A stretch of 40,220 bases of DNA from Clostridia bacterium (GTDB lineage: Bacteria > Bacillota > Sulfobacillia > JAJZYS01 > JAJYTV01): NCBI GenBank assembly GCA_027420455.1, contig DAIBJA010000021.1, positions 1-40,220 of the forward strand, given 5' to 3'. The notes under the pieces were generated by a model. It saw nothing but the letters and a program-made list of their open reading frames with translations. It did no database searches and was not told where the DNA came from. A program made the position numbers and the translations under genes. Positions within the stretch are counted from its first letter, which is position 1. Each line of letters starts with the position of its first letter. Shown one piece after another: positions 120 through 5,315 of this stretch.

Positions 120-317
120 GCTCGCACCGGAAGCACCTACACGTTGCAGAAAGTTTAGGAGAAGGGAGCTTAAACGGCTAAAGAGGACCACAGGGCCCCC
201 TGGCGGCAAACAGCTGGGCCTACCGAACGCCTCGACGGCGACGGGTACGTCTGCTGTACATGCCGCGTCCGACCGGGCGCGGCATAGGATCCCAGGTGGG
301 AATGGGGGTGCGCGTTG

Positions 318-542
318 ATGGCAAGGATAGACCCTGACGACCTGTCCGACATCGAGTTGGATCAGGCGTTCGAGGTCATCATCAACCAGGCGCGTATCCG
401 CCTTGAGCTGCCGCAACTAATGGCGAGGGTGCTGGACTGCAACCCGGAGCAAGTCCATCGAGCAATTCGTGAGTTGGCGGACCACAGTCGACCGCTTGCG
501 GACATTGCCGAGGACCTCCGGAGGACCTTGGGGGAGGGGTAG
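318..542 (+). CDS. Small acidic helical protein upstream of the recombinase
   Basis: An ATG at 318, preceded by GGGGGTG at a suitable distance, opens a 74-residue protein; a TTG at 315 is the alternative start. It is acidic, predicted mostly helical, and has no cysteines beyond one and no membrane segment. I do not recognise the family. It stops only 3 nt before the recombinase start, and the recombinase ribosome site (GGGGAGGGG, about 530-538) lies inside its last codons, so the two are almost certainly cotranscribed and translationally coupled. That position makes an accessory factor for the recombinase, such as a directionality factor, possible, but nothing in the sequence proves it. Confidence 0.6.
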   Translation: MARIDPDDLSDIELDQAFEVIINQARIRLELPQLMARVLDCNPEQVHRAIRELADHSRPLADIAEDLRRTLGEG

Positions 543-545
543 TAC

Positions 546-2057
546 GTGCGGGTGGCATTGTACTGCCGTATCTCTACCGACGAGGACCTGCAACGTTACT
601 CCTTGGTGAACCAGGAGGCGTCGTTGCGCCGCTACGCAGAAGAACGGGGCTGGGAGATCGCCGGCGTCTTCGTGGACCGGATCAGCGGCAGCAAGGACAA
701 GCGTCCCGGTCTGAACCGCCTTCTCGACTCCCTGGCCAGCGGGGACGCGGACGCGGTGATGGTGACGGAACAAGATCGATTGAGCCGCCTGGACGAGATT
801 CCGTGGGCCCTTCTCAAGCAGACCTTCCGGGACTCTGGGGCCAGGTTCTTCACCCTGTCGGGCGAGGTGGACTTCCACAACGAGGACGACGAGTTCTCGG
901 CCGACATCATGGCCTTGATCGACCGCCGGCGGCGCAAGACCATTGTGAGGCAGATGGTTCGAGGCCGGGCGGGAGCGGCCAAGCGAGGCGAGTGGTTGGG
1001 GCGGCTTCCCTTCGGATACCGCAGGAGTCCCGAGACAAAGCATCTTGAGTCTCATCCGGCCGAGGCCCAGCTGGTTCGGCAGATCTTTCAGCTTTTCAGC
1101 CAACAAAAGATGGGCAGCATGCGTCTCTCTGCCCTCATGCGGGACCTCATTCCGACAAGACGTGTCGACCAGGCGTTCATCATTCATGTGTTGCGCAACC
1201 CCGTATACAGAGGCGACTTGGTGATGCAGGTCGGTGGGGAAAGCATATGTGTCGAAGGAACACATGAGCCGATCGTCAGCCGCGATCTCTGGGAGACGTG
1301 CAACCAGCTACTGAACAGGAGGAGCGCCGAGAACAAGAAGTCCAGGATCGAGAGCACCGTTGGGCTCGTTGCCGGCATGGTCTACTGCGCCGACTGCGGG
1401 CAGCTCCTCTCGCCCACCACGGCTACGAAACGGGTTCGCGATGAGGTTCGTCGTTACCACTATTACCGGCACGTTCGCCAGCACCGGGACGCAGAGTTGC
1501 CTGACGGCCACCTGTGTCGTGCGGCGCATCGGGCAGATCAGGTAGACGCGGACGTCCGAGCCCAACTGACCCGCATCGCCACGTCGCCGGCCGCAAGGCG
1601 CCAGATGCTCCGCCGCTTGGGGGACAGCAAGGAGGCGGAGCAACTCGACGCGAGGCAGCGGGAACTCGGCGATCAGATTGCGTCCTTGCGCCGAAAGCAG
1701 GAGCGGCTCCTGCAGCTCTTCCTCTCGGGGGACTGGGATCGGACCCGCCTGAACGCGGAGAAGAGAAACCTCGATCGAAGCATCGCGACCCTCGAAGGTG
1801 AGGCGAGCGACGTGCAGGGGAGGCTGCGGCTCGCCCGTGTGGACGCCTTCAGCCTCGATCTGCTTGCGGAGACGTTCGCGGTGGCGGCGGACATGGCGAG
1901 CCTGTCCTTCAGCGACCAGCAAACGGTCGTGCGCGGGCTCGTCGACCGTGTGGAGATCCACCGTAACGGGAGCGTCAGGGTGATCGCCAAGGTGTCCGTG
2001 GCCGCACATGAGACAAATGCGACGCAGTTTGTACACCATGGCACTGGGGCAGGATAA
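546..2057 (+). CDS. Large serine recombinase, SpoIVCA/phage-integrase type
   Basis: This 503-residue protein starts with GTG at 546 and has the layout of a large serine recombinase. Residues 1-150 are the resolvase catalytic domain, with the nucleophile Ser10 in YCRISTDED and a conserved DRLSR motif near 78-82. Residues about 165-265 are the recombinase DNA-binding domain. A zinc ribbon begins with CADC near residue 281. A coiled coil lies at about 350-425. The size matches SpoIVCA (about 500 residues), which excises skin from sigK in Bacillus. Enzymes of this family join or excise DNA between short att sites through a phosphoserine intermediate. The last codons and the stop overlap, in another frame, sequence that encodes the end of dpaB, so the gene sits exactly at an insertion boundary. 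Its codon use is looser than that of the neighbouring asd operon (for example AGA and AGG arginine codons), which fits foreign origin. Whether it is still active is not known. Confidence 0.93.
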   Translation: MRVALYCRISTDEDLQRYSLVNQEASLRRYAEERGWEIAGVFVDRISGSKDKRPGLNRLLDSLASGDADAVMVTEQDRLSRLDEIPWALLKQTFRDSGARFFTLSGEVDFHNEDDEFSADIMALIDRRRRKTIVRQMVRGRAGAAKRGEWLGRLPFGYRRSPETKHLESHPAEAQLVRQIFQLFSQQKMGSMRLSALMRDLIPTRRVDQAFIIHVLRNPVYRGDLVMQVGGESICVEGTHEPIVSRDLWETCNQLLNRRSAENKKSRIESTVGLVAGMVYCADCGQLLSPTTATKRVRDEVRRYHYYRHVRQHRDAELPDGHLCRAAHRADQVDADVRAQLTRIATSPAARRQMLRRLGDSKEAEQLDARQRELGDQIASLRRKQERLLQLFLSGDWDRTRLNAEKRNLDRSIATLEGEASDVQGRLRLARVDAFSLDLLAETFAVAADMASLSFSDQQTVVRGLVDRVEIHRNGSVRVIAKVSVAAHETNATQFVHHGTGAG

Positions 2058-2060
2058 TCC
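2030..2060. other. Probable element/dpaB junction (right attachment site)
   Basis: Recognisable dpaB coding starts at about 2041-2046, while the recombinase frame runs on to its stop at 2055-2057. The crossover point of the recombinase must therefore lie within or just before this segment. The core sequence cannot be fixed because the matching site at the other end of the element is outside the window. Confidence 0.45.
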
Positions 2061-2163
2061 GAGCGTCAAACCGAACTCGGTGGCCGCCGATTTGAGCCGT
2101 GTCGCGGACACCGTCGTCGCCGCCCTCGAGCATCGGCAACTGCAGCCCTTGCTGGTATGCTGA
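2041..2163 (+). pseudogene. dpaB: 3' fragment of dipicolinate synthase subunit B (dpaB/spoVFB), split by an insertion
   Basis: Reading from 2041 in frame 1 gives 40 codons and a TGA at 2161-2163. They contain the DpaB signature GQDNPSVKPNSVA and the ending ALEHRQLQPLLV, close to the C-terminus of Bacillus SpoVFB as I remember it (FGQDDP..KPNSMVA...LQPILV). Just upstream the frame stays open, but the similarity fades (YTMALGQD where YFVPFGQD is usual), so the junction is near 2030-2046. Subunits A and B make dipicolinic acid from the DapA product in the mother cell. The place, directly before asd-dapG-dapA, is where dpaB sits in Bacillus. The 5' part of dpaB is not in the window. The fragment is either one exon-like half of a gene restored by excision during sporulation, or a relic. 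I typed it as pseudogene because it has no start of its own. Confidence 0.85.
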
Positions 2164-2181
2164 CCTGGACGGAGGATGACC

Positions 2182-3198
2182 TTGAAAAGCGCTAATGTCG
2201 TAATCGTAGGTGCTGCCGGTCTCGTGGGCCAGGAGATCGCCTTGGTCCTGGCCGAGCACGGCGACGCCCTGCCGGTGAGGGAGATCCGCGTGGTTGCGAG
2301 CGACCGCTCCGCGGGGCATGAACTGACCGCCCTTGGCCGCCGCCTCACGGTGGCAGCGATCTCCGAAGACAGCTTCCGCGGGATGGATTTCGCGTTCTTC
2401 GCCGCGCCGAACGACGTCTCGGCGCATTATGCGCCGATCGCGGCGCAAGCGGGCGTCGTGTGCATCGACAAGTCTAGCCACTTCCGCATGCAGGCGGGCA
2501 TCCCCCTGGTGGTGCCCGAGGTGAACCTCGGGCACATCGGTCCCGAGGATCGCATCATCGCGAGCCCCAACTGCTCGACCATCCAGCTCGTCATGGCCCT
2601 CGGACCGCTCGAACGGGCGTACGGCATCCGCCGCGTGATCGTCAGCACGTACCAGTCGGTTTCGGGCAGCGGGCGCGAGGCGCTTGACGGCCTTGAGGCC
2701 GAGGCACGGGCCTGGGCCGGGGGTGCGGCGAGCGAGCCCAAGGCGTACCGGGAGCCGATCGCCTTCAACGTGCTGGCACAGTGCGACGCGTTCCAGCCGG
2801 ATGGCTTCACGAAGGAAGAGCTCAAGCTGCGCCAAGAGACGCGCAAGATCCTAGGACGGCCGGACCTGGAGCTCGCCGCGACCGCGGTGCGCGTGCCGGT
2901 CCGGATCGGGCACGCGGAAGCGGTCACGGTGGAACTCGGCCGCAGCGTCACCGCCGAAGAGGCTCGCGAGCTGCTGCGCGGCCAGACGGGCGTGCGCATC
3001 GTGGATGATCCGCAGGCGGGGGTGTACCCGACGCCGCTCCAGGCGGCTGGTCAGGACGACGTGCTGATTGGGCGGCTGCGCCAGGATCCGGATCGCGAGG
3101 ACACCCTGCACTTCTTTGTCGTGGCGGACAACTTGCGCAAGGGCGCGGCGACCAACGCCGTGCAGATTGCCGAGGCGTTATGGCAGAACAGGAAGTAA
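2182..3198 (+). CDS. asd: Aspartate-semialdehyde dehydrogenase
   Basis: This enzyme reduces aspartyl phosphate to aspartate semialdehyde with NADPH, the branch step to lysine/DAP, threonine and methionine. The N-terminal VVIVGAAGLVGQE is the NADP-binding Rossmann loop. SPNCSTIQ carries the catalytic cysteine at about residue 131, and RIGHAEA the catalytic histidine at about residue 244. The length (338) is normal. I chose TTG at 2182 because the GGAGG at 2171-2175 is 6 nt away; the ATG at 2176 touches the ribosome site and would add two residues. The 3' end overlaps dapG by 19 nt. The operon order asd-dapG-dapA after dpaB is the Bacillus order, and the product feeds DapA, whose product goes to both peptidoglycan and spore dipicolinate. 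Confidence 0.95.
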   Translation: MKSANVVIVGAAGLVGQEIALVLAEHGDALPVREIRVVASDRSAGHELTALGRRLTVAAISEDSFRGMDFAFFAAPNDVSAHYAPIAAQAGVVCIDKSSHFRMQAGIPLVVPEVNLGHIGPEDRIIASPNCSTIQLVMALGPLERAYGIRRVIVSTYQSVSGSGREALDGLEAEARAWAGGAASEPKAYREPIAFNVLAQCDAFQPDGFTKEELKLRQETRKILGRPDLELAATAVRVPVRIGHAEAVTVELGRSVTAEEARELLRGQTGVRIVDDPQAGVYPTPLQAAGQDDVLIGRLRQDPDREDTLHFFVVADNLRKGAATNAVQIAEALWQNRK

Positions 3199-4409
3199 TC
3201 GTCCAGAAGTTCGGCGGCACCTCCGTCGTCGACTTCGAGCATCGCGCGCGCGTCTCGCAGATCGTGCAGACCGCCTTGCAGGAGGGCTTTCGCACCGTCG
3301 TCGTCGTGTCGGCCCCTGGCCGGCTCGGGGACGCCTACGCCACCGACACCCTGCTGCAGCTCGTGGCCAACGAGGGCGCCAAAGTGCCGACGCGCGAGAC
3401 CGACCTCCTCCTGAGCTGCGGCGAGATCATCTCCGCCGTGGTGATGGCGGGCCACCTGCGCAAGGACGGAGTGCCCGCGAGGGCCTTGACCGGCCCCCAG
3501 GCCGGCATCGAGACCGACGGCCGCTTCGGCGACGCCAAGATCCTTCGGGTGGACCCGGGACCGATCAGCGCCGTGCTGGATGAGGGGCTGGTGCCTGTGG
3601 TGGCGGGATTCCAGGGCAGGACGCCGCAGGGCGAGATCGCCACGCTCGGCCGCGGTGGCTCCGACACCTCGGCGGCCGCGATCGGCGCGGCCCTGGGGGC
3701 GACCTATGTCGACATCTATACCGACGTCGACGGCGTGAAGACGGCCGACCCGCGCATCGTGCCGGAGGCGCGGACGATCAGTGCCCTCGACTACGACGAG
3801 CTCTTCCAGATGGCGCAGGCAGGCGCCAAGGTGGTACACCCGCGTGCCGTGGAAGTTGCCCGCCAGGCCCGCGTACCGTTGCGCGTTCGCTCCACGGTGG
3901 GGGACGAGACAGGCACCGTGGTGGGCGGAGCGCGCCTGCAGGACCTCTGGCACGCGCGCCGGCCTGAGAACACCGTGGTCGGCGTCACGGACCGATCCGA
4001 CATCGGCGAGGTCATCGTGAGCACGCCGACCGGCAGCGAACGCACCCAGGTCGAGGCGAAGGTCTTCCAGGAGCTGGCCTCGCATGGCATCTCGGCCGAC
4101 ATGATCTCCGTTTCGCCAGGACGTGTGGCGTTCATCGTCAGCAAGACGCGCCTTGAGGACGCTGGCCGCCTGGTCGCGGCGCTCGGACTGCCGGTCCAGA
4201 CCAGGGACGACGTGGCCAAGGTCGCGATCATCGGCTCCGCCATCGCCGGACTGCCCGGTGTCATGGCGACCCTGATGGCGGGACTCGTCGACGCGGGCGT
4301 CGAGATCCTCGAGACGTCGGACTCCCACTCATCCATCGCCTGCCTCGTGCCGGAAGGTCGCCGCGTCGACGCGGTGCGCACCCTCCATCGCCAGTTCCAC
4401 CTCTCTTAA
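3180..4409 (+). CDS. dapG: Aspartate kinase (DapG type)
   Basis: This enzyme phosphorylates L-aspartate with ATP and opens the aspartate pathway. The N-terminal VQKFGGTSV is the aspartokinase signature, and RGGSDTSAAAIGAALGA with the YTDVDGV segment completes the kinase core (residues about 1-230). From about 260 there are two ACT-like regulatory repeats, the place of allosteric control. At 409 residues it is the single-chain type used in DapG/LysC and not a fusion with homoserine dehydrogenase. I call it DapG from gene order; which effector it senses (DAP, lysine or threonine) is not visible. The start lies inside asd, so translation is coupled. Confidence 0.93.
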   Translation: MAEQEVIVQKFGGTSVVDFEHRARVSQIVQTALQEGFRTVVVVSAPGRLGDAYATDTLLQLVANEGAKVPTRETDLLLSCGEIISAVVMAGHLRKDGVPARALTGPQAGIETDGRFGDAKILRVDPGPISAVLDEGLVPVVAGFQGRTPQGEIATLGRGGSDTSAAAIGAALGATYVDIYTDVDGVKTADPRIVPEARTISALDYDELFQMAQAGAKVVHPRAVEVARQARVPLRVRSTVGDETGTVVGGARLQDLWHARRPENTVVGVTDRSDIGEVIVSTPTGSERTQVEAKVFQELASHGISADMISVSPGRVAFIVSKTRLEDAGRLVAALGLPVQTRDDVAKVAIIGSAIAGLPGVMATLMAGLVDAGVEILETSDSHSSIACLVPEGRRVDAVRTLHRQFHLS

Positions 4410-4433: not shown

Positions 4434-5315
4434 ATGCCGGCTGGAAAGCTCTTGACGGCCATGGCCACGCCCTTCGATCAGGACCTCCAGGTGGATCTGC
4501 GCAAGGCGCAGGCCCTCGCGCTGCAGCTCGTCGAGGACGCTTCCGACGGCATCGTGGTGGCGGGGACGACCGGGGAGTCGCCGACCTTGGGCGAACGCGA
4601 GAAGCTCGACCTCTTCACCGCCGTCGTGGACGCCGTCGGCGACCGGGCGGATGTCTGGGCGAACACGGGCAACTACGACACGAAGGCGTCGATCGACCTC
4701 AGCCGCGCGGCCGAGAAGCTCGGCGTCCATGGCGTCATGCTCGTGGTGCCGTACTACAACAAGCCGCCGCAGGAGGGGCTCTACCGGCATTTCCGCGCGA
4801 TCGCGGAAGCGATCGAGGTGCCGGTGATGCTCTACAACGTTCCTTCCCGCACCAGCCAGAACATGACGGCCGAGACGGTGCTGCGCCTGCAGCGGGACTG
4901 CCCGAACATCGTCGCGGTCAAGGAGGCTTCGGGCAACTTCGAGCAGGCGGCCGAGATCATCAAAGGCGCGAGAGGCGACTTCGCGCTCTATTCGGGCGAT
5001 GACAAGTCGACGTTGCCCCTGCTCTCGATCGGGGGGCAGGGCGTGGTCTCCGTCGCGTCGCACCTCGCGGGAGTGCGCATCCGGCGCATGATCGACGCGT
5101 TCATGACCGGGCAGGTACGCGTGGCGCAGGAGCTGCACCTCGAACTTCTGCCGCTCTTCACCGGACTCTTCGTGACCACGAGCCCCGTGCCGCTCAAGTG
5201 GGCCATGAAGGCGGTCGGCAGGGATCTGGGCGGCGTCAGGCCCCCGCTCTGCCCGCCGAGCGCATCCGAGGAGGCGTTCCTGCGCAGCCTTCTCCATGAC
5301 CAGGGCCTCGGCTGA
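4434..5315 (+). CDS. dapA: 4-hydroxy-tetrahydrodipicolinate synthase
   Basis: It condenses pyruvate with aspartate semialdehyde. The 293-residue TIM barrel has the family motifs GTTGESPTL (residues about 43-51), MLYNVPSRT with the catalytic tyrosine at about 134, and VAVKEASGN with the Schiff-base lysine at about 163. ATG at 4434 has an AAGGAGG 7 nt upstream. It is the last gene of the asd-dapG-dapA unit. In spore formers its product is also the substrate of DpaAB, whose B subunit remnant lies two genes upstream. A new promoter follows at once at 5335. Confidence 0.96.
   Translation: MPAGKLLTAMATPFDQDLQVDLRKAQALALQLVEDASDGIVVAGTTGESPTLGEREKLDLFTAVVDAVGDRADVWANTGNYDTKASIDLSRAAEKLGVHGVMLVVPYYNKPPQEGLYRHFRAIAEAIEVPVMLYNVPSRTSQNMTAETVLRLQRDCPNIVAVKEASGNFEQAAEIIKGARGDFALYSGDDKSTLPLLSIGGQGVVSVASHLAGVRIRRMIDAFMTGQVRVAQELHLELLPLFTGLFVTTSPVPLKWAMKAVGRDLGGVRPPLCPPSASEEAFLRSLLHDQGLG

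Follow-up and report, generated by a model that had tools for sequence, protein, structure and literature searches.

The element vfbin interrupts spoVFB, the gene for dipicolinate synthase subunit B, in Bacillus weihenstephanensis KBAB4, and as far as the accounts of it in PMC10747680 and PMC4191935 go, the gene is rejoined during sporulation (Abe 2013, doi 10.1111/mmi.12375). In the skin elements of sigK (Bacillus subtilis, Clostridioides difficile), a large serine recombinase (LSR) is encoded at one end of the island and the att sites are imperfect inverted repeats (PMC6957869, PMC5025042); the 64-aa recombination directionality factor of skin, skr, is encoded directly upstream of spoIVCA (PMC6957869). 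The gin element of gerE in Bacillus cereus ATCC10987 is a non-prophage island carrying an LSR and a small accessory factor, and its host gene is also rebuilt in sporulation (PMC5595907).

The stretch of DNA analysed here (the window, 40,220 nucleotides) is the start of contig C15 in a 1.98-Mb, 77%-complete Bacillota bin (G000), and it holds the 3' side of a comparable arrangement (Table 1). A sequence-only reading of the window had claimed that the end of dpaB (spoVFB) directly follows a recombinase gene, that asd, dapG and dapA come next in their normal order, and that the start of dpaB is missing. Profile matches confirm the layout: the 3' piece (QDNPSVKPNS...LLVC, stop TGA at 2161-2163) matches NF006161 (1.2e-10) and TIGR02852 (3.8e-10) at profile positions 150-187, and the LSR stop codon (TAA, 2055-2057) falls within this piece. 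Three bases separate the LSR start from a conserved 74-aa ORF immediately upstream, which the sequence-only reading had overlooked.

Table 1. Features at the left end of the window
Feature	Position	Strand	Remarks
CATA-type -10-like motif (sigmaE/sigmaK-like), GCATAGGATC	281..290	+	35 bp upstream of 74-aa ORF
74-aa all-helical small ORF, candidate recombination directionality factor	318..542	+	one operon with LSR
Large serine recombinase (LSR), 503 aa, intact	546..2057	+	Pfam Resolvase 8e-30, Recombinase 1e-11
attR outer arm (P arm), GTTTGTACACCATGGCACTGGGG	2027..2049	+	18/23 complementary to attL arms of G001, G004 and G005
CA crossover core	2050..2051	+	GCA common to attL, attR and intact site
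dpaB (spoVFB) 3' piece, 37 codons + stop	2050..2163	+	NF006161 and TIGR02852 C-terminal matches
asd, downstream neighbour	2176..3198	+	usual spoVF order; TIGR01296 4.5e-118
dapG (aspartate kinase)	3180..4409	+	NF006068 2.6e-150
dapA	4434..5315	+	TIGR00674 1.7e-93

Sequence further to the left cannot be read because the window begins at base 1 of its contig, and neither a complete dpaB nor a dpaB 5' piece was found in the 77%-complete bin. The start of dpaB is thus absent from this assembly, as had been claimed; it is present in five relatives, where it ends at the same codon, and the 5' piece that the window's own genome presumably has is here supplied by their sequences. The dpaA gene is intact on a separate short contig and does not stand immediately left of dpaB here. 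Another contig of the bin, C13 (57 kb), has a like arrangement with a recombinase 91% identical to that of the window. Since it is 99.86% identical to contig C156 of G003 over 5.7 kb, we treated C13 as another species' sequence, likely a contamination of the bin, and rejected it as a second copy of the locus in the same genome.

Relatives show both sides of the interruption (SKS1.bin49, G005; DX1.bin88, G006; DX1.bin42, G007; HSP1.bin35, G002; LSA3.bin48, G030; others are numbered likewise). The split falls at the same codon throughout the genus (all six sampled species), in a sister genus (two species) and in one distant family. In a DpaB family search, 5' pieces end at model position 154-156 (G001, G003, G004, G005, G007) and 3' pieces start at about 143-151 (G000, G002, G003, G005, G006, G007). 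Where the intact gene reads FVPFGQDNP, the 5' pieces run ...YFVPFG and then into HSKS-, and the 3' pieces begin with QDNP...; the 5' fragment that the sequence-only reading called for therefore exists in relatives and ends exactly before the 3' fragment starts. Full-length dpaB occurs in about 100 of the 154 genomes of the class, and such split pieces are confined to family f1 and G030. A complete dpaB elsewhere, which that reading held would mark the locus as a dead relic, was found in none of the 97-99% complete split genomes, nor was any second copy.

Two genomes display the island between its flanks. In SKS1.bin49 (99% complete), a 159-bp overlap with 1 mismatch links contig C7 to C127 and places both dpaB pieces on one strand in direct orientation, flanking a 13,343-bp island. 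In LSA3.bin48, a middle piece of dpaB, a 5,949-bp island and the 3' piece are all on one contig. Joining the pieces at the CA core in silico gives an in-frame DpaB of 194 aa in G003, G005 and G007 and of 209 aa in the three-piece G030. These joined products score 268-297 bits against a TIGR02852 cut-off of 229, below which most single pieces fall.

It counts against an excision reading that the 5' piece is absent from the bins of G000, G002 and G006, the latter two 97% complete; in G002 the MFS contig of the left flank ends before the dpaB 5' region, so its absence there is read as an assembly gap, and a proven loss was rejected. Also against it, the sequence to the left of an attL-like end in G006 (contig C34) does not belong to dpaB. 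In G007, contig C2 ends 13 nt past an intact FGQDNP junction and other contigs of the same bin hold attL and attR; the intact junction may come from an excised form or from another strain.

The junctions in relatives also contain the short shared core, GCA, that had been expected at both ends. The left site is TTCGGG-CA-CTCCAAGTCCATGGTGTGCAAAC (attL) and the right site GTTTGTACACCRTGGCACTGGRG-CA-GGATAATCC (attR); excision is predicted to join TTCGGGCA to GGATAATCC in dpaB and to create a 48-bp attP, GTTTG...GGAG-CA-CTCC...CAAAC. The outer arms form a 23+CA+23 inverted repeat with 14-19 of 23 positions complementary around the CA, as against a mean of 6.3 matches of 23, and a maximum of 16, in 200,000 random arm pairs. 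The arms of G030 and G007 are other sequences, yet they still match each other, and between lineages the two arms differ together. An attP with a central dinucleotide and inverted-repeat arms is the usual form for serine integrases. In the excised circle, the recombinase frame is predicted to lack its stop codon and to gain about 16-41 residues.

The description of the recombinase as SpoIVCA-like holds in the broad sense of an LSR and goes no further: its best NCBIfam matches are XisF (121 of a cut-off of 375) and CcrB (115 bits of 900), both far below the cut-offs. Identity is 67-92% across the LSR family and 54% in G030. All eight LSRs of this family that adjoin dpaB flank its 3' piece; one more lies away from dpaB in G030 and one beyond a dpaB 5' piece in G007. 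No relatives of the LSR were found in viral contigs. At locus L076 (9992-11596, contig C111 of G030), a second LSR of this family, preceded by a small ORF of its own, is located outside dpaB, beside a PuuD-like gene.

The 74-aa ORF always stands immediately before a family LSR, and it is 84-85% identical in G002 and G006 and 49% identical in G030. Its AlphaFold model (pLDDT 89) consists of three helices, with no PDB fold match and no homology match. We regard it as a candidate recombination directionality factor. Against the excision reading, the ORF is broken in C13 and in contig C84 of G007, and in G005 the copy beside the LSR has decayed; a second copy in the G005 island, about 4 kb away, is intact and has its own CATA motif.

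We searched upstream regions for sporulation-type promoters. The motif CATA..[ATG]T, which resembles the -10 element of sigmaE/sigmaK promoters, is found upstream of dpaA in 10/10 cases and of dpaB in 8/8, versus 2/69 background upstream regions. It also precedes the LSR operon at all five dpaB-flanking loci of the genus and G006 (G000, G002, C13, G006, G005) and, as the variant CATAGTGTA, in G030. Upstream of dpaB, CACC stands 15-16 bases before the motif in nearly all cases (CACC-N16-CATATATTA in G030), and the spacing of sigmaK promoters is 14-16 (PMC517825). A clear -35 is lacking from the LSR promoters. The strict 10-mer GCATACVATG shows no genome-wide enrichment in G002 (5 sites vs 4 control) and is not supported as a genome-wide sporulation signature. 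For these two reasons we count the motif only as suggestive of mother-cell sigma control of the LSR operon. Homologues of sigK occur in 9/10 family genomes, by a model that also matches other sporulation sigma factors.

The cargo of the islands is variable: ars genes in contig C84 of G007, Fic and MNT/HEPN toxin-antitoxin genes in G030, adenine deaminase, MFS and BNR proteins in G005, and PHO4 in G002. The part of the cargo examined in these four yielded no phage genes.

In LSA3.bin48 dpaB is in three pieces, with two different LSR elements in one gene. The second LSR, of 531 aa, precedes the middle piece; the ends of its element share ATAACCGACACACC as a 14-bp core and carry the inverted repeat TTAGCGTCAAAT. 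This interruption falls at the ITDTP codons (L058, contig C78, 4072-5856; L059, 1538-1858). Removing both elements in silico restores the dpaB frame, and since the two are unrelated, two independent excisions would be needed for dipicolinic acid.

Other fragments were seen in the same group of genomes. Relic 5' fragments of dpaB in G007, G008 and G009 stop close to this ITDxP site; in the sister genus, truncated relics that end at the site lie at L055 (6531-6698), L057 (3665-3826), L061, L062, L063 and L064. Most share the non-dpaB tail GTGTGGACACCACTATGG and some are just upstream of a longer dpaB copy, and they perhaps derive from elements that brought a substitute 5' end with them. Orphan attL-like sites, in which the same outer arm as at dpaB follows a conserved left flank of other origin than dpaB, CTACCGAAGGCGGCTTGTCCCC, occur at L050 (13644 and 15765), L053 (1843), L116 (two sites, contig C20 of G007), L117 and L118, often before lipoprotein or ECF-sigma genes. 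Several orphan 3' fragments of sigK (L119, L120, L121, L122 and L123; sigK regions of G007, G002 and G003) start at one of two fixed junctions, either IENEIL (about codon 111) or HIVKKF (about codon 65). Their left arms are conserved and are not sigK, and intact sigK copies lie beside them in G007 and G002. As their sequences read, these fragments are the remains of skin-like elements.

The dN/dS ratios are 0.02-0.12 for dpaB 5' pieces, 0-0.26 for 3' pieces and 0.11-0.26 for the LSR (within the family), values that would partly reflect the time before insertion if the insertions are recent. The window's own 3' piece has 100% amino acid identity to that of G002 at a dS of 0.25. By these ratios both dpaB pieces and the LSR are under purifying selection. 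That the gene is still under selection, as the sequence-only reading held, agrees with these ratios; like the matched attP arms, the intact dpaA and the independent repeat insertions, they argue against a dead relic.

The trees of the recombinase and of asd conflict. Between G000 and three relatives, dS is lower in the LSR than in the adjacent asd (0.30 against 0.75 for G003, 0.50 against 0.91 for G005, 0.74 against 1.19 for G006), and a G006+G007 clade, which has 99/97 support from asd, is rejected by the LSR tree (p-AU 0.003). Islands have moved horizontally between genera. The conflict of the two trees, together with G030, therefore implies at least three island entries into one dpaB codon. 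We lean towards the reading that a dedicated family of non-phage LSR islands, with a mother-cell promoter like that of its target, captured dpaB at this codon at least three times, and that the doubly interrupted gene of LSA3.bin48 needs two excisions.

A recombinase with matched end sites would rejoin dpaB exactly, and the island is therefore probably cut out at sporulation. We consider it very likely that sporulation-time excision of a non-phage island rebuilds dpaB, with the LSR operon under sigmaE/sigmaK-type control. The island sits between the FG and QDNP codons, and growing cells, with dpaB in two pieces, would lack a working dipicolinate synthase B subunit. During sporulation, a sigmaE/sigmaK-type RNA polymerase would turn on the LSR operon in the mother cell, including the small ORF as presumed directionality factor; the LSR would recombine attL with attR at the CA dinucleotide and the island would leave as a circle. 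The restored, in-frame dpaB would then be expressed for dipicolinic acid synthesis. The forespore would retain the island, which would therefore be inherited. In this scheme regulated excision is what we infer; the split, the matched att sites, the exact restoration, the conservation and the independent acquisitions are read from the sequences.

Some of the same observations could be seen otherwise. If dpaB served simply as attB for a selfish site-specific island excising at low, unregulated frequency, the host would tolerate it because a minority of cells carry intact dpaB; the variable cargo, the movement between genera and the intact junction of G007 beside contigs with attL and attR would all fit. 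This reading is unlikely, though: the island is fixed in 6/6 sampled species of the genus, it shares the CATA motif with both dpaA and dpaB, and sigK, spoVFB, gerE, spsM and spoVR are known targets of regulated elements (PMC6957869, PMC4191935). Still less probable is that the island destroyed dpaB and left decaying remnants. The three assemblies that have a 3' piece and lack the 5' piece would suit a dead relic, as would the truncated dpaB relics that do exist, ending at another site, in the sister genus. Against it, the reading frames of the two pieces are open, strong purifying selection acts on them, all of 10/10 genomes keep an undamaged dpaA, the LSR is intact, the att arms still match, the joined products exceed the DpaB cut-off, and insertion has been repeated independently; moreover, true relics in the same genomes look unlike these pieces, being frameshifted and truncated.

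That the two pieces function as separate polypeptides is hardly credible. Both reading frames are open, but the 3' piece, of 37-38 codons, overlaps the LSR stop and lacks a conserved start and ribosome site of its own, the tail in which the 5' piece ends is not conserved, and the complementarity of the att arms would be left unexplained. An artefact of assembly or binning might be feared in low-coverage metagenome bins, one of which contains a contig nearly identical to that of another species; the chance of this is negligible, being refuted by recurrence: at least eight genomes, whose recombinases are 54-92% identical, have this junction, and in G030 it is seen on single contigs.

Rebuilding of dpaB by excision would extend programmed gene rearrangement in sporulation to deep-branching, uncultured, GC-rich Bacillota, with the same spore gene captured independently in these Bacillota and in Bacillus. 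It would also bear on why late mother-cell genes are favoured homes of mobile elements: an insertion there would do no harm provided that the element is gone in time, and it would be retained in the forespore. Serial, genus-wide and doubly interrupted cases in dpaB offer a natural series for testing this idea, and the compact LSR, small ORF and 48-bp attP make up a new candidate recombination unit.

Among the described systems, the locus shares with skin, vfbin and gin a sporulation gene split by an island (in relatives; the window holds the 3' side only), a serine recombinase of its own at one end, a shared core with inverted-repeat att sites in direct orientation, and precise excision that restores the frame in in silico joins. 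XisF, of the fdxN element of Nostoc, likewise acts in a terminally differentiated cell to restore a gene, and XisF and the Ccr proteins of SCC islands are the nearest NCBIfam LSR models; the distance of the island LSR from both cut-offs sets it apart, and an SCC element was rejected on the CcrB score. A prophage-like element of the skin, SPbeta or vfbin type was likewise rejected, given the cargo examined and the lack of viral LSR relatives. Skin resides in another gene and has prophage-like cargo; the position of skr before spoIVCA is that of the 74-aa ORF here (PMC6957869), and the likeness to SpoIVCA is one of LSR domain architecture only. The gin element is also in another gene and has three recombinases (PMC5595907). 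The parallel with vfbin drawn by the sequence-only reading is real, to the extent that PMC10747680 and PMC4191935 describe it: the gene is the same and the element has a serine recombinase, whereas vfbin has phage-related genes and a Bacillales host, and here the islands have non-phage cargo and interrupt the gene across a whole genus, in deep-branching, GC-rich Bacillota. Since dpaB is also the gene that vfbin interrupts, and since gin is an example of such an island that is not a phage, the kind is already known; what is new here is the host group, along with fixation across a genus, repeated entry into one codon and a gene interrupted twice.
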